A DNA stretch of 64,000 bases from Rhodohalobacter sulfatireducens. Lineage in GTDB: Bacteria > Bacteroidota > Rhodothermia > Balneolales > Balneolaceae. Below are positions 30,383 to 47,830 of this stretch, one piece after another; position 1 is the stretch's first letter, and every line of letters begins with the position of its first letter. Below the pieces are notes generated by a model. It saw only the letters and a list, made by a program, of their open reading frames with translations. It was not told the origin of the DNA and did no database searches. Location of the stretch: the NCBI RefSeq assembly GCF_022012475.1, contig NZ_JAKLWS010000017.1, positions 1 through 64,000 of the forward strand, given 5' to 3'. The translations under genes and the position numbers were made by a program.

Positions 30383-30456
30383 TGGGCCCGGAGGGACTTG
30401 AACCCCCGACCAATCGATTATGAGTCGACTGCTCTAACCGGCTGAGCTACGGGCCC
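30383..30456 (-). tRNA. tRNA with CAT anticodon, probably tRNA-Ile2 (lysidine-modified)
   Basis: The minus strand folds as a complete 74-nt tRNA without encoded CCA. The acceptor stem is GGGCCCG/CGGGCCC with discriminator A. The D-arm is AGCTC...GAGC. The anticodon stem-loop is CGACTCATAATCG with anticodon CAT, and the T-arm loop is GGTTCAAGTCC. The anticodon stem and the TTGGTCG variable region resemble tRNA-Ile(CAU) more than elongator tRNA-Met. The 3' end faces the integrase, so it is the likely integration target. Confidence 0.92.
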
Positions 30457-38479: not shown

Positions 38480-38599
38480 GTATGAATGTCGAATATCCAA
38501 TATCCCCCGCAAGGGATCCCTCAGGGAGAACACCGAATGTTGAAGTGACAGAATCCTTCGAAATTCGAGATTGGATGTTCAGTGTTCGATATTCATACA
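38480..38599. repeat. IVP-associated palindromic repeat, copy R1
   Basis: The left arm gtatgaatgtcgaatatcc is inverted at the right end (gttcgatattcatac). The core contains ccgaatgttgaagtgacag and ccttcgaaattcgag. It is nearly identical to R2 at 38707-38825 and related to R3 and R4 near 46 kb. Confidence 0.85.
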
Positions 38600-38640
38600 C
38601 TTTTCTGATCCAGGATTCACTACCTTAATCAAATGTATGT

Positions 38641-38712
38641 ATTGCAGAGGTAAATGAACCTATGCCGGTTTTTGTAAAAAGTATTCAAACAGCGAAGAAA
38701 AACCTGGTATGA
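38641..38712 (+). pseudogene. 3' remnant of a four-helix-bundle (23S IVP-like) protein gene
   Basis: The frame encodes EVNEPMPVFVKSIQTAKKNL followed by a stop. It matches the C-terminal end (EVNELISIFVKSIQTAKKNL) of the pseudogene at 46201-46566. Everything upstream of this tail is gone. Confidence 0.8.
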
Positions 38713-38825
38713 ATGTCGAGTATCCAATATCCCCGCAAGGGCTCCCTCAGGGAGAACACCGAATGTTGAAGTTACAGAGCCCTTCGAAATTCGAGATTGG
38801 ATATTCAATAATCAATATTCACACA
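38707..38825. repeat. IVP-associated palindromic repeat, copy R2
   Basis: This is the same sequence family as R1. It starts exactly at the stop codon of the four-helix-bundle remnant (ctggtatgaatgtcgag), as R4 does at 46561. Confidence 0.85.
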
Positions 38826-38889
38826 ACCTTTCAATTTCTATGGAATAAGTGATAACTTTGAATGATTCTTTTCAAAAACGAGGAAACCA

Positions 38890-40236
38890 TTGAAAATAGT
38901 TATCGCGGGTGCGGGTGAGGTTGGATATGAACTGAGTAAGGTTCTGTCAATCGAAAAACACGATGTTACCGTTATAGATGAGAGAAAAAAATGCCTGCAG
39001 CGTGTGTTGGAAAACCTGGATGTGCTTACAGTAGAGGGCAATGCCACATCTCCAAATGTACTTGTTGAAGCCGGGGCACAAGACGCCGACCTGATGGTTG
39101 CCGTTACCAGCGTAGATGAGGTCAATATTATCGCTTCGATGATGGCTAAACGGCTTGGCGTTAAGCGAGTGATCGCCCGTGTTCGAAACAATGAACTATC
39201 ACGCCCGGATTCACCTCTTACACCTTCAGAGTTGGGGATTGACGTTTTGATCCATCCCGAAGAGAGTGCAGCTAACGAGATCCATCAGCTGGTTAAAAGA
39301 GCCTCTGCAACGGATGTTGTTTCCCTGGCTGACGGCCAATTACAGTTGGTTGGACTACGGGTTGAAAAAAACTCCGACATCATCAACACAACGCTCGAAG
39401 ATCTTGCCGAATCCTATTCAGAGATACCATTTCGAGTGGTTGCCATATCAAGACGGGGACGGACCATCATCCCGCGCGGTAACAACCAGATCATGCCGCT
39501 GGACCACATTTTTATTATCACAAAGGTGGAACATATCCGGGATATTGTTGAAGCAACGGGGCACAAAGATGTAAGCCTCCGCCGAATAATGATTGCAGGC
39601 GGCGATGAAGTGGGCCGTATGCTCGCCAGAAAGCTCTCAAAGGACAAACAGAAATGGGAGATTAAACTGATCGAACCCAATCCCGATATCGCAACTGAAA
39701 TTGCGAATAATCAGCGTGATATCCTTGTTTTGAACGGTGATCCGACAGACCCGAATTTGCTTGTTGTGGAAGGGATCCAGGAGATGGATGCGTTTGTATC
39801 GGTAACCGAAGATGAGGAATCGAATATTATCTCCTGTTTGATGTCGAAACACCTGGAGGTAAAAAAGGCTGTGGCCCTCGTATCAAAACCGCAGTATATA
39901 CCCCTCAGTCAAACCATCGGTATCGATGCTGTTGTAAACGTAAAAGCATCAGCTTCGGATGAAATTCACCGTCATATCCGCCAGGGACAACTGCTAACGG
40001 TAAAAGCGCTCCAGGGAATTAAAGCGGAAATAATGGAGGTCGTTGCCGGGAAAAATTGTGATATCTCAGACAAACCCATTCATTCCATTGGCATCCCGGA
40101 AGGAATTGTGATCGGTGGAATTTTGAGTGGTGATTCAGCTGAAGTTGCAACCGGAGATTCCGTCATCAAAAAAGGAGATCGCGTAATTGTTCTCGCCCTT
40201 CCGAATGCTATCAATCAAGTAGAAAAACTTTTCTGA
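38890..40236 (+). CDS. trkA: Trk system potassium uptake regulator TrkA
   Basis: This 448-residue protein consists of two RCK units. The first has GAGEVGYELSKVL at residues 6-18 with the acidic ribose-binding Asp after VTVI. The second starts near residue 232 (MIAGGDEVGRMLARKLS). Each is followed by a TrkA_C domain. It binds NAD(H)/ATP on the cytoplasmic face and gates TrkH. The start is TTG at 38890, placed directly before the glycine-rich loop as in homologues. It overlaps trkH by one base and sits just downstream of repeat R2. Confidence 0.95.
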   Translation: MKIVIAGAGEVGYELSKVLSIEKHDVTVIDERKKCLQRVLENLDVLTVEGNATSPNVLVEAGAQDADLMVAVTSVDEVNIIASMMAKRLGVKRVIARVRNNELSRPDSPLTPSELGIDVLIHPEESAANEIHQLVKRASATDVVSLADGQLQLVGLRVEKNSDIINTTLEDLAESYSEIPFRVVAISRRGRTIIPRGNNQIMPLDHIFIITKVEHIRDIVEATGHKDVSLRRIMIAGGDEVGRMLARKLSKDKQKWEIKLIEPNPDIATEIANNQRDILVLNGDPTDPNLLVVEGIQEMDAFVSVTEDEESNIISCLMSKHLEVKKAVALVSKPQYIPLSQTIGIDAVVNVKASASDEIHRHIRQGQLLTVKALQGIKAEIMEVVAGKNCDISDKPIHSIGIPEGIVIGGILSGDSAEVATGDSVIKKGDRVIVLALPNAINQVEKLF

Positions 40237-41750
40237 TGATTGAATTCATGACTCAAAATGTAAATCGGCCGCGGATTGATTTCCGGTTGATTTCAGGCAT
40301 CCTCGGTGGTCTTCTCTTCTTTCTTGGAGTTGCAATGCTGCTTCCATTATTAATTGCTTTGATCTACCAGGAATCCTCCTGGAGTGCATTTTTGATCACA
40401 GCGGGCGGTACTATGCTCATCGGCGGAACCCTTTTCTATATTTTTAGGCCGAAGGATGAGCTGCGAATGCGGGAAGCTTTTATGATCGTAGCTCTCATTT
40501 GGTTTCTCGGCTCCATTTTCGGGGCTTTTCCGTTTACACTTTCTGGTTCACTCGAATCATATACCGATGCAGTGTTCGAGTCCATGAGCGGGCTTACAAC
40601 GACCGGTGCCACTATTTTCGGAGGTATTACGGCGAGTGGAATTCAAAACCCGGATATTGAATCACTGGATAAAAGCATCCTCTTCTGGCGGTCACTCTCC
40701 CACTGGCTTGGCGGGATGGGAATTATTGTTTTAACGCTGGCTTTGCTTCCGCTATTGGGGATTGGGGGAATGCAGCTCTATCAAGCGGAATATTCAGGAA
40801 ATACGGCTGATAAAATCACACCCAGAATCCAGGAAACGGCGATGCTGCTCTGGACGATTTACGTGGGCCTGACTGCCGGGGAGTTTATCCTGTTATGGCT
40901 TCATCCCTCCATGGATTGGTTTGAGGCGATCAACCATGCGTTTGCCACACTGGCAACGGGGGGATTTTCTACAAAAAACGCCTCGATTGCCGCTTTCGAT
41001 TCCGTCTATATCGACATTGTGATAACGGTTTTTATGTTCCTTGCAGGTATTAACTTTGCTCTGCATTACAGGCTTTTTACGGGAGATTCAAAGAGTTTTT
41101 TTCAAAATCGTGAGTTTCGTTTTTACGTTCTACTTACGATCCTATTTATGGCAGCAATAACGGTGGGTTTATTAATTACACAAGATTATTCGATCGGGAA
41201 AGCTCTTCAATATGGTTCCTTCCAGGTTGTATCAATCCTGACGACCACCGGCTTCGGCACGGACGATTACATGCTCTGGATGCCATTCACTTCCTTCCTG
41301 CTCTTTCTGTTATTCTTTACCGGCGGATGTGCTGGATCGACCGGTGGCGGTATAAAGATGATGAGGCTTATGATCATTATGAAAAATATTGGGAGGGAGT
41401 TCCGGCAAATTATTCATCCTCAGGCTGTACTTCCAATCCGGATTGGGGAGCGGGTGGTTGAGTCAAAAATTCTGAAAACAATTCTTGGCTTTTTTGTTAT
41501 GTATTTTATCGTTTTTGCCGCCGGCGCTATCATAATGACGCTGATGGGATTTGATATGATGTCGGCAATGGGCGCGAGTATAGCCAGCCTGGGGAATATC
41601 GGGCCGGCATGGGGAGAGTTTGGTCCGGTGGATAACTATGCAAAAGTACCGATTCTTGGGAAATGGGTACTTCTAATGTTGATGATGATTGGCCGGCTGG
41701 AACTGTTTACGGTACTCGTGTTATTCACCCCCTGGTACTGGAAGAATTGA
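40236..41750 (+). CDS. trkH: Trk potassium transporter membrane subunit TrkH
   Basis: This 504-residue membrane protein has about ten hydrophobic segments and four pore-loop repeats: TTTGATIF, TLATGGFSTKN, LTTTGFGTDDY and IASLGNIGPAWG. The central Gly of each contributes to the K+ filter. The GGCAGSTGGGIKMMR loop is a family hallmark. It is translationally coupled with trkA (overlap ATGA). Together they import K+ at the inner membrane. Confidence 0.95.
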   Translation: MIEFMTQNVNRPRIDFRLISGILGGLLFFLGVAMLLPLLIALIYQESSWSAFLITAGGTMLIGGTLFYIFRPKDELRMREAFMIVALIWFLGSIFGAFPFTLSGSLESYTDAVFESMSGLTTTGATIFGGITASGIQNPDIESLDKSILFWRSLSHWLGGMGIIVLTLALLPLLGIGGMQLYQAEYSGNTADKITPRIQETAMLLWTIYVGLTAGEFILLWLHPSMDWFEAINHAFATLATGGFSTKNASIAAFDSVYIDIVITVFMFLAGINFALHYRLFTGDSKSFFQNREFRFYVLLTILFMAAITVGLLITQDYSIGKALQYGSFQVVSILTTTGFGTDDYMLWMPFTSFLLFLLFFTGGCAGSTGGGIKMMRLMIIMKNIGREFRQIIHPQAVLPIRIGERVVESKILKTILGFFVMYFIVFAAGAIIMTLMGFDMMSAMGASIASLGNIGPAWGEFGPVDNYAKVPILGKWVLLMLMMIGRLELFTVLVLFTPWYWKN

Positions 41751-42167
41751 TGAGGATAAGACCGCGTAACTAATTTAGGGTGAGAGTTTATTGAAGAGTG
41801 TCCCCTTTTGGAGATTGTGAGAAAACAGATAGTCAACTAGAGTAGCCATTTGTTTTTTGCCAAGAAGACGCAAAGTCGCGAAGGTTCACAAAGTAAAATA
41901 AAATCAGAATAATAATCGTTGTGAAACTTAGTGTCCTTGTACCTTCGTGGCCTCAAATCGCGAGTGTTTGCAATGCTTATTGTTATATTTTCTCATAGCC
42001 TCTTTGAATGGGAAAGGATAAACAGGGTGTTTCAGTTAGATGACAAATGAATGTTGAATTGGTTAATTCTACATTTTTAAACTTAATATACGCTGTTTTC
42101 ATCCCCCATTGCCTCCACGAAGGGGGACACTCTCCTCAAATTTTTTTCTGATCTGTTAACGAGATTT
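41751..42167. other. Convergent intergenic region with nested imperfect palindromes
   Basis: There is no gene. Outer arms agagtgtccccttttgg (about 41797) and gaagggggacactctcc (about 42119-42135) are inverted. A second nested pair is gccaagaagacgcaaagtcg (41858) against cttagtgtccttgtaccttc (41927). The region separates the converging trkH and potassium-channel genes and may form bidirectional terminators. Confidence 0.55.
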
Positions 42168-43865
42168 TTAAGGCTCGTACTTATCATTAAAAGCTACTTC
42201 ACCTTCAAAAGAACCGATCAGAACAATTTCACGGTTGAGTTCTAAAATGGTATCCGGTCCCGGGTTAACCTGCATGCTGTCATCTTCGCAATTAATGGCA
42301 ATTACCGTACACCCGGTTTCATTTCGAATGTTACATTGTTTCAATGCTTTTCCGGCTAATTTTTTGTTGACACGATGATTGAACACATTGAGCCCCTCTG
42401 CCAGTACCATTGCATCCTGCCCCTCCAGTATGTTAAAAAATGAATTGGCACCCATTGAGGCGTACGACATCACAAAATCGGCACCGGCGCGATGCATGGT
42501 GTTGATGTTCTTCTCATAAGTTGTCCGGCTGATGATCTGCATTTCGGGCGAAAGTTGACGGCAATAGATTGTCAGGTAGATATTGACGTCATCGTCATGC
42601 GTTGTGATCAGTGCGGTGTGTGCTTCCTGAATGCCTGCACGATAGAGTACGCTGATATCCGCTGCATCGCCCAAAATATGTCGTTCATCATCTTCAATAC
42701 GTTCCGGGTTTTTGTCGATCATTCGATAATCGATTCCGCGATCTTCCAGGCTCTTCGAAGCAGCTCGCCCAACTCGACCTCCCCCGATAATCACAACCGG
42801 ATGATCTGAAACATGATAGATGCTCATCAACTCGTCATATGTTCGAAATTGATCGACCGTACCGGCCAGAACAAGAACACTTTCCTCGTGGATAACCGTC
42901 TCAGGCGTTGGGTCGATAAATTTGCCGCGCTCCCAGATTCCTACAATGCTTACTCCAATCTTTTCACGAATCTTACTTTCTTTAATTTTTTTCCCGACAA
43001 GTGGAGTTTGCTGTACAGTCGATTCGCCAATTACCAAGCGGTCGATATGGCCGATGACATGTACCCTTGCATCACCGCCGAGAGTTCTCCGTGCGAGTGC
43101 CCGCCCCAGGATCTCTCCCATTTGCAGTACATGATTTGCACCGGCAAGCTGGAGTACATCCACAGAATCAGGAGAGGCAGCCGTGGTCACAATTTTTATA
43201 TCAGGATTGAAATCTTCAGCCGTAAAAGTGATATTGGTGTTTTCCGTATCCGATCCTGTGGATACAATCATGGAGGCATCTTCAATATTCAGGTATTTGT
43301 AGGTATCAAAATCGGTGGGATCGAGATTTACAACATTATAATCCATGTCGGACAGATCCAGTGCTTCCTGCAGATCGGGTTCCAATATGACATAGTCTAT
43401 TTTATAGGCATTCAGTTTTTTAATGAGTGCTTCGGTAATAGAATCGAGATGGGTGATGATGACATGATCCTTCATCGCCTCATCCACTTTTTTGGGCGCC
43501 CGGGCCTGGTTTTGTGCCTTCAGCCAGGGAGCGTAGAAAAATTCAATAAATGTGAAGGGAAGCAAAATCAACAGGAAGAGTACACCGGAAAACAGAACCA
43601 CCATCGAGAAGATACGGCCCAAATCACTGTGAAATACAATATCACCAAAACCAAGAGTAGACATGGTTACCAGTGTCCAGTAAAACCCGGTGATCCAGGA
43701 ATACCCTTCCTCCACACCCTCGTAAATAGCGATGTAGTGAAATGCAATAGAATAGGTGATATACATTGCCACCAAAACACCGAGAAATTTCAGCAACTTT
43801 CGAACGTTGGTCTTTGTCCGGCGGTTGGCAAAAAAATAGGATAATTGTGAACCGAGAAATTTCAA
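42168..43865 (-). CDS. Two-RCK potassium channel protein
   Basis: This 565-residue protein has two membrane helices (about 27-47 and 83-107) around a pore loop whose filter reads TLGFGD (70-75) instead of TVGYGD. Two cytoplasmic RCK/TrkA_N-TrkA_C units follow, the second with VIIGGGRVGRAASKSLEDRG. The C-terminus is a TrkA_C domain. It is a ligand-gated K+ channel of the MthK/GsuK type and probably balances the TrkAH importer encoded convergently beside it. The family and topology are clear; the ligand is unknown. Confidence 0.9.
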   Translation of the reverse strand: MKFLGSQLSYFFANRRTKTNVRKLLKFLGVLVAMYITYSIAFHYIAIYEGVEEGYSWITGFYWTLVTMSTLGFGDIVFHSDLGRIFSMVVLFSGVLFLLILLPFTFIEFFYAPWLKAQNQARAPKKVDEAMKDHVIITHLDSITEALIKKLNAYKIDYVILEPDLQEALDLSDMDYNVVNLDPTDFDTYKYLNIEDASMIVSTGSDTENTNITFTAEDFNPDIKIVTTAASPDSVDVLQLAGANHVLQMGEILGRALARRTLGGDARVHVIGHIDRLVIGESTVQQTPLVGKKIKESKIREKIGVSIVGIWERGKFIDPTPETVIHEESVLVLAGTVDQFRTYDELMSIYHVSDHPVVIIGGGRVGRAASKSLEDRGIDYRMIDKNPERIEDDERHILGDAADISVLYRAGIQEAHTALITTHDDDVNIYLTIYCRQLSPEMQIISRTTYEKNINTMHRAGADFVMSYASMGANSFFNILEGQDAMVLAEGLNVFNHRVNKKLAGKALKQCNIRNETGCTVIAINCEDDSMQVNPGPDTILELNREIVLIGSFEGEVAFNDKYEP

Positions 43866-44093
43866 GTTTTTTGGATGTATGGTTCGTCTTACTTGATATT
43901 ACGAAATCAAAAAATAGTTTGACGATAATTTGATTTCGTAAAATGAACACTCAAATAAAGAACAAAATTTCTGTTTCCAAAAATATATCAAACCTTTTAC
44001 AAACTCATTGTGGGTTTCATTGGATATTCACAGTTTGAATTGATTACTTTTACGAGTCTACAAACAGATCAAATAATAGAGTAACAGAAGTTC

Positions 44094-45344
44094 GTGTTTC
44101 GCCGAATAACAGTCATTTTCTTCTTACTATTACTACCGCAAGCTCTTCTGGCTCAAGGCAATGACTCTCAGAATTCTATTCCAAACGTCTATCTCGATTG
44201 TGGCTCTTGCGATTTTTCCTACATTCGTACTAATGTTACTTTTGTGAATTATGTGAGAGATCAGAGTGATGCCAACATCTATATTTTAATTAATGATTTG
44301 GGAACAGCGGGCGGCGGGCGCGAATATACGCTTGTCTTTTCGGATATCAATATGGAGATGAACCGCTCGGATACACTTAAATATGTATCCCCCAGTACCG
44401 ATTCAGGTGATGAGCGAAGGAGAGGTCTAACCCGGTATATAAAAGTGGGGCTTGTGCCCTTTGTGAGCAGTACACGTGCCATGGAGACGCTGGATGTCTT
44501 TTATGAAGAACCGGATGAAGATGAAACGAATGGTGAAACGGTTGAGGATCCATGGAATAACTGGGTATTCGATATTGATGTACGGTCAAATATGTGGGGG
44601 GAGTCTTCGGAATTTAATTTTGGCCTATATAACGGTATTGAGGTTGAACGAATCACCCCGGTATGGAAAATCCGGTCGAGAGCAAGAGGTGAAATTCGAC
44701 GTAGAAATGTAGAGTTGACCGATCGAACCATTAATGTAAACCGGGATTGGGGACAATACTGGACGATGGTGGCTTACACGATCAACGATCATGCATCCAT
44801 TGGCTTGTTTAATAATTTGAACTTTTCAAGAACCCGAAATATTGCACTTAATGCTGAACTTTCCCCTGCTTTTGAATATAATTTCTTTCCATATACAGAG
44901 TACGAGGAACGCCGGTTTATCATTCAATACAGTCTTTCTCCTGCATACCGAAAATATTTTAATACCACGATATTTTTGAAAGATTCTGAGTTTGTAATGA
45001 ACCAGGAGCTGAGTACCCGGTTGCGATACGACCAGCGATGGGGGAGAGTAGATATTCGGGTAGGGGGCGCCAACTATTTCCATGATCTGTCCATAAACAG
45101 GTTGGAGATCAATCCATCATTTAATGTTAGAATTGTTCGGGGACTTTCTGTAAGTATATCCGGCAGGTACCGTTTGATCAATGATCAGCTTTCATTGGAA
45201 CTGCCCTCGGAAGTGGACCCCAACGATCCTATTAGCATTATCGAAGGAGTCCAGCGCCCAACAGCTTATGATTATAGCCTTTCTTTTGGCCTTTCCTATA
45301 CATTTGGTTCGATCTATAACAACGTGGTGAATCCCCGTTTTTAA
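44094..45344 (+). CDS. Secreted/outer-membrane protein with N-terminal CxxC domain, unknown function
   Basis: This 416-residue protein starts at GTG with a signal peptide (residues 1-20, ending ALLA). The mature N-terminal domain begins VYLDCGSCDFSYIRTNVTFV, with Cys 36 and Cys 39 in a CGSC motif, and continues NYVRDQSDANIYIL and GGGREYTLVF. I have seen this arrangement in unnamed envelope proteins of Bacteroidota and relatives. From about 155 to the end, alternating strands (FNFGLYNG, WTMVAYTIND, FGLSYTFGS) suggest a beta-barrel. A divergent promoter region separates it from the K+ channel gene. Confidence 0.75.
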   Translation: MFRRITVIFFLLLLPQALLAQGNDSQNSIPNVYLDCGSCDFSYIRTNVTFVNYVRDQSDANIYILINDLGTAGGGREYTLVFSDINMEMNRSDTLKYVSPSTDSGDERRRGLTRYIKVGLVPFVSSTRAMETLDVFYEEPDEDETNGETVEDPWNNWVFDIDVRSNMWGESSEFNFGLYNGIEVERITPVWKIRSRARGEIRRRNVELTDRTINVNRDWGQYWTMVAYTINDHASIGLFNNLNFSRTRNIALNAELSPAFEYNFFPYTEYEERRFIIQYSLSPAYRKYFNTTIFLKDSEFVMNQELSTRLRYDQRWGRVDIRVGGANYFHDLSINRLEINPSFNVRIVRGLSVSISGRYRLINDQLSLELPSEVDPNDPISIIEGVQRPTAYDYSLSFGLSYTFGSIYNNVVNPRF

Positions 45345-45404
45345 GATTGTTATTTTTTTGTGACTCTATTACGGGTTCAAACAGGTAGATTTAAAGAAAA
45401 CACC

Positions 45405-46028
45405 ATGAAATACCTTTGGCATTTATTTTATACCATTCTCGTAGTAACATTTATTTCTTGCTCAGGAGGAGAGATCGCATCTACTGCGGAAGAGGTTTCT
45501 CCTGCAGAAGTTGGAGAAGAGATACCTAATGTTACGTTGAAGGATCCCTTTGGCGATGATGCCGAACTTCAAGATCTAATCTCAAAAAAACCAACACTTC
45601 TCATTTTTTACCGTGGCGGATGGTGCCCGTACTGCAATACACATTTAAGTCAGCTTGCCGAGATCGAAGAACAGTTATATGATATGGGAATTCAAATTTT
45701 AGCGGTGAGTCCAGACAAGCCTTCCTATCTGAAGGACTCCATGATGGAACATGATTTGAACTATCAGCTGCTTTCTGATAGTGATATGAGTGCAACCAAA
45801 GAGTTTGGGCTTGCTTTCCGGGTAGATACAACAACGGTGAACCGATACAAAAGAAATGGTATGGATTTAGCCGAAAGATCCGGATATGATCATTACCTGT
45901 TGCCCGTCCCGGCAGCATTTTTAGTTGATACGAATGCCATGATCGAATACCGGTATTTCAACCCAGATTATACCGTTCGAATTGAGAATGACGAGATTTT
46001 GTCAGCAGTTGAAGAGATGCTGGAATGA
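45405..46028 (+). CDS. Lipoprotein peroxiredoxin-like protein (AhpC/TSA family)
   Basis: The start at ATG 45405 is preferred over an in-frame GTG at 45360 because it begins a lipoprotein signal (MKYLWHLFYTILVVTFISC, lipidated Cys 19). The thioredoxin-fold domain contains GGWCPYCNTHLSQL with Cys 74 and Cys 77. Downstream elements (LLSDSDMSATKEFGLAFRV, PAAFLVDT) fit the Prx-like2 AhpC/TSA group. It probably reduces peroxides or disulfides in the periplasm. Its stop codon lies inside the first bases of palindromic repeat R3. Confidence 0.85.
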   Translation: MKYLWHLFYTILVVTFISCSGGEIASTAEEVSPAEVGEEIPNVTLKDPFGDDAELQDLISKKPTLLIFYRGGWCPYCNTHLSQLAEIEEQLYDMGIQILAVSPDKPSYLKDSMMEHDLNYQLLSDSDMSATKEFGLAFRVDTTTVNRYKRNGMDLAERSGYDHYLLPVPAAFLVDTNAMIEYRYFNPDYTVRIENDEILSAVEEMLE

Positions 46029-46130
46029 ATATCGAATTCTCTGAATATCGAATAACCAATATTGAACAACAAATGTAGAAGTGACAGAACCCTTCGATAT
46101 TCTACATTGGATATTCTTTATTCGAAATTC
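46023..46130. repeat. IVP-associated palindromic repeat, copy R3
   Basis: It begins gaatgaatatcgaattctc, overlapping the stop codon of the peroxiredoxin-like gene, and ends ttattcgaaattc. The core aatgtagaagtgacagaacc is shared with R4. The related core in R1/R2 is aatgttgaagtgacag. Confidence 0.85.
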
Positions 46131-46200
46131 AAAAATAATCTGTAAGGGTTTTCAATTTTCAGGTTCATACAACTGACAGACCTAATAAAACAATAATATT

Positions 46201-46566
46201 ATGGATGAAAATGTGTATGACCTTGAAGATCGGCTGATTGAATTTGCAGTACATACAATGGAAGTTGCTGAAGCATTGCCGCGTTCAGATTCAGGTAGAT
46301 ATTTGTCAGGGCAGATGATTCGCTCAGGAACTTCACCTGCATTGGTCTATGGTGAGGCTCAGAGTGCGGAATAAAGAAAAGATTTTATACATAAAATGAA
46401 AGTAGCGTTGAAAGAGCTAAGGGAAACTTCTATAAATTTAAAGATTACTCAGAGAAAAGGATTTCGAACACTGCCAGAAAATCTTCCAGTCGCACTTGAG
46501 GAAGTTAATGAACTCATATCCATTTTTGTAAAAAGTATTCAAACAGCAAAGAAAAACCTGGAATGA
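46201..46566 (+). pseudogene. Four-helix-bundle (23S rRNA intervening-sequence protein-like) gene with in-frame stop
   Basis: The 122-codon frame encodes MDENVYDLEDRLIEFAVHTM ... QMIRSGTSPALVYGEAQSAE, then TAA at 46372-46374, then RKDFIHKMKVALKELRETS through to a normal stop at 46566. The family usually has Ser at the stop position (QSAESRKDFIHK), so a single base change (TCA to TAA) explains it. The rest of the frame is intact, which suggests recent inactivation or a sequencing error. These proteins are small helical bundles of unknown function found in 23S IVSs and as free genes. It lies between repeats R3 and R4. Confidence 0.85.
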
Positions 46567-46670
46567 ATATCGAACTCTCTGAATATCGAATAGCCAATAT
46601 TGAACACCGAATGTAGAAGTGAGCCAATCCTTCGATATTCTACATTGGATATTCTTTATTCGAAATTCAT
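46561..46670. repeat. IVP-associated palindromic repeat, copy R4
   Basis: It starts at the stop codon of the four-helix-bundle pseudogene (gaatgaatatcgaactctc) and ends ttattcgaaattcat, about 40 bp before the rlmN start. It is nearly identical to R3. Confidence 0.85.
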
Positions 46671-46711
46671 ACCCTCTGTTGATTCCGCCCGTATGTTTGT
46701 ATCTTTGGCCC

Positions 46712-47830
46712 ATGGAAAACAATCAGATCACAGAGACCCCGACAACAGATCTAAAAAGTCTACCAAAAGAACAACTCACCGAATACCTTGAAGACCTGGG
46801 ACTGCAAAGTTACCGATCGGATCAAGTATTTCAATGGCTGTACCAAAAGGGAGCAAGTACGTTTGAGGAGATGACCAATCTTTCGAAAGATCTTCGTGCT
46901 ACGCTTTCCGAATTGGCGGAGATTAAGCGTATTGAAGTTTTTAATCAGCAGGAATCCAAAGACGGTACCATCAAGTTTCTTTTTAAGTTGGATGATCCCA
47001 ATGATTACAAAGTGGAAGCCGTTCTTATCCCTGATTATTATTCGGACGGGTCGATCAACAGAATTACGGTTTGTGTATCATCACAGGTGGGCTGCATGTT
47101 TGGATGTTCCTTTTGTGCAACCGGTAAAATGGGTTATTTCAGAAATCTTACGCATGGGGAAATTGTAGACCAGGTCCAGATTATCAATGAGGTGGCCGAG
47201 GAGAAGTTTGGTAAGAAGATCAACAACATCGTGTATATGGGGATGGGCGAGCCGCTCCACAACTACAAAGCGGTGGTTGAGTCTGCCAAGATTTTGTCGG
47301 ATCCGCTCGGATTGGAGATGTCACCCCGCAGAATTACAGTTTCCACGGTAGGCCTTTCAAAACAGATTAAACAGCTTGCCGATGAAGACCTGGGTGTGAA
47401 CCTGGCAATTTCATTGCATGCAGCTGACGATGAGAAGCGAGATAAAATCATGCCGATCAATGAATCGCTGAACCTGGAAAAGCTGAAAGAAGCAGTAACC
47501 TATTTCTTCCAACGAACACAGCAGCCGGTCACCTACGAATACTTGTTGTTTGATCAGTTCAATGACTTTGTTGAGGATGCCCATAAATTGGCTCAAATCA
47601 CTCGATGGGTTCCGTCAAAGGTAAACATCATCATGTATAACAATGTTGCCGGTGTGGAGCTGAAACGCGTACGAGAGAACCGACTCGATCAGTTTATGCA
47701 GGCCCTGATCAGCAAAGATGTGACGGCAACCGTTCGCCGCAGCCGGGGAGATGACATCGATGCAGGGTGTGGTCAGCTTGCGATAAAAGAGGGGCAGGAA
47801 AGAGGAAAGAGTATGGCGAAGGATAGCTAA
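46712..47830 (+). CDS. rlmN: 23S rRNA/tRNA adenine-C2 methyltransferase RlmN
   Basis: ATG at 46712 (MENNQITETP) is chosen; the in-frame GTG at 46619 lies inside repeat R4. The N-terminal helical domain (LPKEQLTEYLEDLGLQSYRS) precedes the radical-SAM barrel. The barrel has Cys 128-x3-Cys 132-x2-Cys 135 (CMFGCSFC) binding the 4Fe-4S cluster, and GMGEPLHNY. Cys 353 in GCGQLA is the second catalytic cysteine region. It methylates A2503 of 23S rRNA and A37 of tRNAs. Confidence 0.95.
   Translation: MENNQITETPTTDLKSLPKEQLTEYLEDLGLQSYRSDQVFQWLYQKGASTFEEMTNLSKDLRATLSELAEIKRIEVFNQQESKDGTIKFLFKLDDPNDYKVEAVLIPDYYSDGSINRITVCVSSQVGCMFGCSFCATGKMGYFRNLTHGEIVDQVQIINEVAEEKFGKKINNIVYMGMGEPLHNYKAVVESAKILSDPLGLEMSPRRITVSTVGLSKQIKQLADEDLGVNLAISLHAADDEKRDKIMPINESLNLEKLKEAVTYFFQRTQQPVTYEYLLFDQFNDFVEDAHKLAQITRWVPSKVNIIMYNNVAGVELKRVRENRLDQFMQALISKDVTATVRRSRGDDIDAGCGQLAIKEGQERGKSMAKDS

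Follow-up and report, generated by a model that had tools for sequence, protein, structure and literature searches.

The DNA considered here is a stretch of 64,000 nt from Rhodohalobacter sulfatireducens (contig NZ_JAKLWS010000017.1, positions 1 to 64,000), referred to below as the window. It contains a gene of the IVP/S23 four-helix-bundle family (PF05635) that is bracketed by two palindromic repeats, R3 and R4, and is broken by an in-frame stop codon. With a probability of roughly one half, this R3-gene-R4 arrangement is a broken copy of a widespread mobile DNA unit with a single gene, which has spread together with its own short sequence word in a manner resembling RAYT/REPIN systems, without a transposase. 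Such a unit would consist of (i) a 5′ arm, (ii) a promoter, (iii) the IVP/S23 gene and (iv) a 3′ arm. The arms are made up of repeated copies of a degenerate 7-nt word; the two arms of a unit pair with each other, and in some units, including that of the window, each also forms a hairpin by itself.

A search of the genome containing the window (G000; 5.1 Mb in 138 contigs; other G numbers denote relatives and L numbers denote loci) gave 13 matches to PF05635, read as 12 genes (two adjoining matches are halves of one), and the same search found none in 14 control genomes. Most of the G000 genes lie between two complementary stretches, each gene with a 7-nt word of its own (e.g. CTGGTTG at L009 and AGTTGAC at L004). 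The arms were scored as the best inverted alignment of the two flanks in (i) an own-order set of 115 IVP loci from G000 and relatives of the same genus or order, among the matches listed (111 scorable with 350-nt flanks), and (ii) a wider set, i.e. the best 80 loci among the matches listed when ten IVPs of this order were used to scan named genomes (78 with flanks long enough). The wider set is mostly from Bacteroidota, and also includes candidate-phyla bacteria, Chloroflexota, Planctomycetota, KSB1, SAR324 and others.

The median inverted score of the own-order loci was 35, compared with 19 when flanks of different loci were paired. The 95th percentile of this shuffled-pair control was reached by 85 of the 111 loci, and 38 exceeded the 99th. 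For the wider set, 60/78 loci reached the 95th percentile of shuffled pairs and 25/78 exceeded the 99th, while 60/78 and 45/78, respectively, exceeded these percentiles of 2417 fake genes placed on the same contigs. Fake genes slid over the window had a median score of 19 and a 99th percentile of 30 (n=1050). Since both shuffled pairs and fake genes score lower, the possibility that the arms are ordinary intergenic palindromes was rejected. Arms with a score of at least 28 (85/112 loci) showed a lag-7 self-match of 0.51 and 0.49 (0.25 in nearby DNA) with echoes at lags 14 and 21, and the best period in the 60 armed loci of the wider set was 7 in 46 cases and 8 in 11. The 5′ arm is low in C on the gene strand (11% versus 23%).

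Hairpins within a single flank exceeded the control's 95th percentile in only 19/107 5′ flanks and 17/107 3′ flanks; they are not general, indicating that pairing occurs mostly across the gene. In direct orientation, 23/111 own-order loci reached the 95th percentile, and the window unit, L062, L071 and L081 are strong in this respect because a near-copy of one palindrome stands on both sides of the gene. When 800 kb of G012 was taken regardless of IVP genes, 13318 fake genes produced 99 inverted pairs with a score of at least 26. Heptad character was found in four of these pairs, two of which are IVP loci; a third IVP gene of this stretch (273501) was missed by the filter of the paired scan. 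The same 800 kb contains eight strong arrays at lag 7, compared with 0–4 at the remaining lags from 5 to 16, a modest excess; some of the lag-7 arrays are IVP arms or their remnants, and one lies, by our reading, in a coding frame.

The word carried by the arms was found to follow the protein. Among 78 armed loci with long two-sided flanks, 2897 pairs without a shared flanking protein were compared. A common word was present in 34/65 pairs with protein identity of at least 0.6, 18/80 pairs at 0.5–0.6, 11/240 at 0.4–0.5, 17/760 at 0.3–0.4, 12/1331 at 0.2–0.3 and 2/421 below 0.2. Conversely, unrelated IVPs (identity of 0.30 or less) occupying one place had a common word in none of seven pairs, and in a broader set of loci none of 300 label permutations matched the observed word-protein correlation. 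For pairs from the same place, the arms paired better within a genome than across species in 39 of 62 cases, worse in 18 and equally in five, the pairs not being independent of one another. As far as sequence comparison can tell, the word belongs to the protein and not to the place.

The features of the window that bear on this unit are the following (all on the plus strand):
About 38480–38600: R1, a heptad palindrome left of the gene tail (repeat comparison, self-match, folding).
38642 to about 38712–38719: 3′ remnant (tail) of an IVP-type gene, up to its TGA stop codon (83% identity to the 3′ end of the gene at 46201–46566).
38706–38826: R2, a heptad palindrome beginning at the stop codon of the tail (repeat comparison, self-match, folding).
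45360–46028: left neighbour, an AhpC/TSA-family gene outside the unit (Pfam AhpC-TSA, 82.6 bits).
46021–46135: R3, a heptad palindrome, the putative left arm, beginning at the AhpC/TSA stop codon (repeat comparison, self-match, folding, Tandem Repeats Finder).
46141–46169: promoter-like motif of the IVP gene, TGTAAGG-N14-GGTTCATA (the genome has 27 such sites, and none for the reversed pattern).
46201–46566: IVP gene (Pfam PF05635, 23S_rRNA_IVP) with one in-frame TAA at 46372–46374.
46559–46673: R4, a heptad palindrome, the putative right arm, beginning at the IVP stop codon (repeat comparison, self-match, folding, Tandem Repeats Finder).
46712–47830: right neighbour, rlmN, outside the unit (Pfam RlmN_N and Radical_SAM).

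The IVP gene matches PF05635 with an E-value of 4.3e-9 (38.6 bits, cut-off 33.8), and its reading frame continues unchanged past the TAA. R3 and R4 are 93% alike and R1 and R2 89%, with 65–69% likeness between the two pairs. The self-match of R1–R4 is 0.42–0.44 at lag 7 and 0.38–0.46 at lag 14, compared with 0.18–0.32 at the remaining lags from 4 to 15, and for R3 and R4 Tandem Repeats Finder reported a period of 14 within the right half of each. Folded as single-stranded DNA, R1–R4 were more stable than 200 dinucleotide shuffles (z of −4.70, −2.21, −2.93 and −3.02; 0, 5, 0 and 0 of the 200 shuffles, respectively, folded as well). A GC-rich sub-palindrome, ccccgcaagggatccctcaggga, is nested in R1 (38505–38528), in R2 (38731–38754) and in the copies on contig C69 (L205, about 1105–1128), and is absent from R3 and R4.

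These data bear out what the sequence-only reading had described, namely paired repeats around a four-helix-bundle gene in one case and around the tail of such a gene in the other, with the right-hand repeats starting at stop codons and R3 at the stop of the preceding gene; the corrections are that the gene between R3 and R4 is broken and that every one of the four repeats is a hairpin in its own right, made of heptads. The sequence ctggaatgaatatcgaa is present at both 46021 and 46559. The identity of 17 bases at the AhpC and IVP stops was rejected as proof of a cut site: these bases represent the edge of the repeat, because in G005, which has a single repeat at this place, the adjoining AhpC gene also has them at its end. 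The R1–R2 pair was likewise rejected as a separate functional unit. It encloses only a gene tail, and is most simply explained as a remnant of duplication or deletion, because the relative L062 shows gene, repeat, tail and repeat in a row. R3 has nine matches in the genome, five of them outside the window, and blastn detected no trace of this IVP gene around these five.

Comparison with relatives revealed filled, solitary, decayed and empty states of the same places. At the place found in the window, the AhpC gene stands beside rlmN in only 4 of 30 rlmN loci (G000, G012, G021 and G005). In G012 and G021 the two genes are separated by about 0.1 kb or less, without a repeat, and in G005 the spacer holds one solo repeat with the same two edges, the loop of which is broken by an unrelated insert. 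This insert (L213) is about 0.6 kb long and is flanked on each side by GATAGAAYCC, which looks as though a different mobile element had targeted the repeat. A second place lies between genes that we take to be trpS and trpG. For 20 of the 24 loci fetched, reading of this place identified four full-length units (at least one with an internal stop), four pairs of arms with a decayed gene, three solo hairpins with other words, one remnant, seven empty places and one cut by a contig end. In the tRNA-His/tRNA-Glu spacer, 20 loci were tried: three carry solo GAGTCNT hairpins, two other repeats, eight are 10–23 nt long, five 39–68 nt and one 188 nt, and one was not found.

Two further loci show nesting: L073 has a new word inside remnants of the word still held by its relative L008, and L043 has a GAGTCTT remnant outside TAGATGG arms. 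Comparison of the loci shows the joint inheritance of gene and arms, newer units inside older arm remnants, and units and gene-less hairpins at places where relatives are empty. The sequence-only reading had proposed that the repeat-gene-repeat arrangement moves or is copied as a whole, perhaps at the RNA level, and that empty sites would define its ends. That the arrangement is a unit is supported by the empty and solo states described above and by the joint travel of word and protein across genomes; the RNA part, considered below, is not supported.

Some words have been multiplied as gene-less arrays. Counted as overlapping matches, doubled GAGTCNT occurs 111 times in G015, 58 times in G014 (18 for the reversed control), 28 times in G002 and 22 times in G003, with 3–4 matches in five other genomes, including G012, whose IVP gene L053 carries this word. 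Of 30 GAGTCNT loci fetched (partly overlapping), 28 are without an IVP gene. CTGGTTN has 63 matches in G000, 18 in G019 and 6 in G005, each with an IVP of that word, 5 in G015 and none in five others. GAGTATY has 35 matches in G003 and 9 in G012, both with decayed units at the trp place, 18 in G019, 3–5 in four genomes with a full-length unit and 0–3 in six others. A word is thus usually present where its IVP is or was; its amount varies, and an intact gene is not needed. As to whether the repeats mostly stand singly, with no link to such genes, the picture is mixed: IVP genes lie mostly between paired arms, and gene-less repeats also exist.

In this respect the system resembles RAYT/REPIN, where palindromic repeats belong to a particular gene and similar hairpins without a gene occur elsewhere in the genome; according to passages of one study of P. 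fluorescens SBW25, each RAYT adjoins a different REPIN cluster (PMC3116915). Gene-less hairpins of an IVP's own repeat were found for GAGTCNT, CTGGTTN and the repeat of the window, and were weak or absent for some IVPs. The differences are that the IVP protein belongs to PF05635 and is not a Y1 (HUH) transposase, and that its repeat is an array of a 7-nt word, not a fixed REP hairpin.

The best-surviving alternative, although in our view an unlikely one, is that the heptads are operator arrays and the IVP a nucleic-acid-binding autoregulator. The arms would then change by slippage, nothing would be mobile, and word and protein would be coupled because binding must be kept. Such a regulator would account for the word following the protein, for the better pairing of arms within genomes and for the many IVPs that stay at one place. 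However, it leaves unexplained the filled and empty places, the solo hairpins between tRNA-His and tRNA-Glu, the unrelated IVPs at one place and the multiplied gene-less arrays, and such a regulator would have no need of arrays on both sides of a gene.

A promoter-like motif accompanies the IVP genes of this lineage. TGTAAGR was found within 200 nt before 56/115 IVP genes, compared with one occurrence in the 3′ flanks and three on the other strand. The stricter and sharply conserved form, TGTAAGG-N14-GGTTCATA, has 27 sites in G000 (L266–L292) and none for the reversed pattern, 15 sites in G012 and two in G023. Of the 27 G000 sites, 4 precede IVP genes; 17 of the other 23 downstream frames were checked with Pfam. 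The genes behind the motif include comEC (PF03772), recA and genes for a comEA-like HHH_3 protein, an integrase-like protein, a PDDEXK_3 (GxxExxY-type) nuclease and a DUF559 protein, together with a ComF-like protein recognised solely by a zinc-ribbon match below the cut-off; several further frames are unrelated or unannotated. The corresponding genes of G012 are comEC, an HHH_3 protein gene, recA, an integrase-like protein gene, two Y1, two PDDEXK_3 and two IVP genes. The motif probably marks a competence and recombination regulon of this genus.

At 6 of the 27 G000 sites the gene behind the motif encodes a Y1 transposase (five above the Pfam cut-off, one below), so that in this genus Y1 and IVP genes have the promoter-like motif in common, a further likeness to RAYT/REPIN. 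Four of the six Y1 genes, with scores of at least 30, lie between inverted arms, as do the DUF559 and the PDDEXK_3 genes (scores 28–64 overall; L285, L276, L268, L272, L277 and L280), and units of several kinds, each with one gene, may thus have a common way of life. These associations would fit a model in which the hairpins are mobilised in trans by RAYT-type Y1 transposases, with the IVP gene as a mere passenger or as a cofactor. We regard this model as improbable: the Y1 arms that were read resemble compact REP hairpins and not heptad arrays, and the heptad word tracks the IVP protein.

The position of the motif also bears on RNA. In 40 scorable loci, the 5′ arm lies upstream of the putative promoter in 36, overlaps it in one and lies downstream in three, which argues for DNA and not RNA as the level at which the arms act. 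The genes inside 23S rRNA intervening sequences belong to this family, and passages of a study of Coxiella describe an intervening sequence whose complementary terminal ends form a 28-bp stem, cut by RNase III in vitro, with tandem GACAGAT heptamers before the gene (PMC4990558). The likeness in protein family, complementary ends and heptamers is evident, but the IVP units are free-standing, intergenic and equipped with their own promoter-like motif. An element whose arms pair in the transcript as in these RNase III-cut sequences, and which is spread or tolerated through RNA, is accordingly the least probable of the alternatives, since the 5′ arm would mostly fall outside the gene's own transcript (read-through could still hold both arms) and no rRNA adjoins the loci checked. 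An association with rRNA was rejected for these loci, as Rfam matched no rRNA either within the window or at 16 IVP loci from outside Bacteroidota.

Several observations weigh against a mobile unit of the proposed kind. Scores fell below the control's 95th percentile in 26/111 own-order and 18/78 wider-set loci. When the loci were grouped by shared flanking proteins (sometimes on one side only) into 24 places, 12 of these were monophyletic in the IVP tree, so that movement is not frequent; in eight others, the members came from distant branches, some of the sequences being truncated. TGTAAGR precedes just 2/80 wider-set loci, and the motif therefore belongs to this lineage. By eye, no target-site duplication of the unit was seen at the empty places compared, where the flanks are strongly diverged. 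Finally, the number of words does not always match the IVP: G012 has an IVP with GAGTC words yet four matches, the 35 GAGTATY matches of G003 stand beside a decayed unit, and the five CTGGTTN matches of G015 occur with no IVP of that word among those read.

If the R3-gene-R4 arrangement is a mobile unit, the IVP protein, a pentamer in solved relatives, would recognise its own word on single-stranded or extruded hairpin DNA, perhaps, to speculate, with one heptad per subunit. The only relatives in PDB, 2GSC and 2RLD, are each one entry with five chains. According to PMC4990558, the Xanthomonas protein is a homopentamer. The IVP protein could thereby assist the copying of the unit and of its solo hairpins, or their joining to intergenic DNA, and in this genus it would presumably act when competence and recombination genes are on. 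The enzyme for strand transfer would lie outside the unit, candidates being host recombination or repair, or a Y1 transposase acting in trans.

Beyond this genus, 27 plasmid records, mostly from Cyanobacteria, encode an IVP relative, and 12 of these regions were read. The arm score was at least 29 in 11 of the 12 and above 39 in 8; the latter value is the control's 95th percentile, which is high because plasmid loci share words. The genes sit between cas6 and cas4, between cas10 and cmr3, between ribonucleotide reductase subunits, or beside conjugation genes. On plasmids of Pseudanabaena, Anabaena and Picosynechococcus (L393, L395 and L401), IVP genes with heptad arms stand inside the CRISPR-cas rows (cas6/cas4 and cas10/cmr3). 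Avd of diversity-generating retroelements is a pentamer of a related four-helix-bundle family; the annotated neighbours of the 12 plasmid loci include none named as a reverse transcriptase, no dedicated search having been made and retroelement repeats not having been searched for.

The heptanucleotide repeats (TAACTGA and others) of Cyanobacteria, Beggiatoaceae and Bacteroidetes are, according to passages of PMC4679880, likewise intergenic with a period of 7 nt, and L112 has arms that contain TCAGTTA, the complement of TAACTGA. Passages of that paper and searches of it by term disclosed no link to IVP/S23; its remark that a TAACTGA-binding protein might itself be the mobile element is the nearest idea in print that was found. 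The open-access literature found on PF05635, a widespread family, deals mostly with its presence within 23S rRNA intervening sequences; no account linking it to heptad arms was found there (subscription papers and preprints being outside the scope).

The apparent joint spread of gene and word may explain these long-puzzling seven-letter repeats of bacterial genomes. At clearly less than even odds, and so tentatively, we propose that IVP/S23 rings read a heptad code: each pentamer would bind the word particular to it on hairpin DNA, with one heptad for every subunit, and would spread its gene and gene-less hairpins under a competence switch, and 23S intervening sequences as well as the heptad arrays of Cyanobacteria and Bacteroidota would be products of this single system without a transposase. 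If true, the function of IVPs, the origin of intervening sequences and the commonness of heptanucleotide repeats in Cyanobacteria and some Bacteroidota would become one testable system. Besides RAYT/REPIN, there would then be another system that joins a gene with its own repeat, here with a ring protein that is not an enzyme instead of the transposase. As many word-protein pairs exist, the recognition code would be readable by comparison and testable in vitro.

Two minor observations were made in addition. The IVP gene L110 (G014) is flanked on either side by very long direct repeats (score 244 in direct orientation), the period of which is greater than 7. Within the window, the sole Rfam match at the gathering threshold is a tRNA at 30383–30456 on the minus strand.

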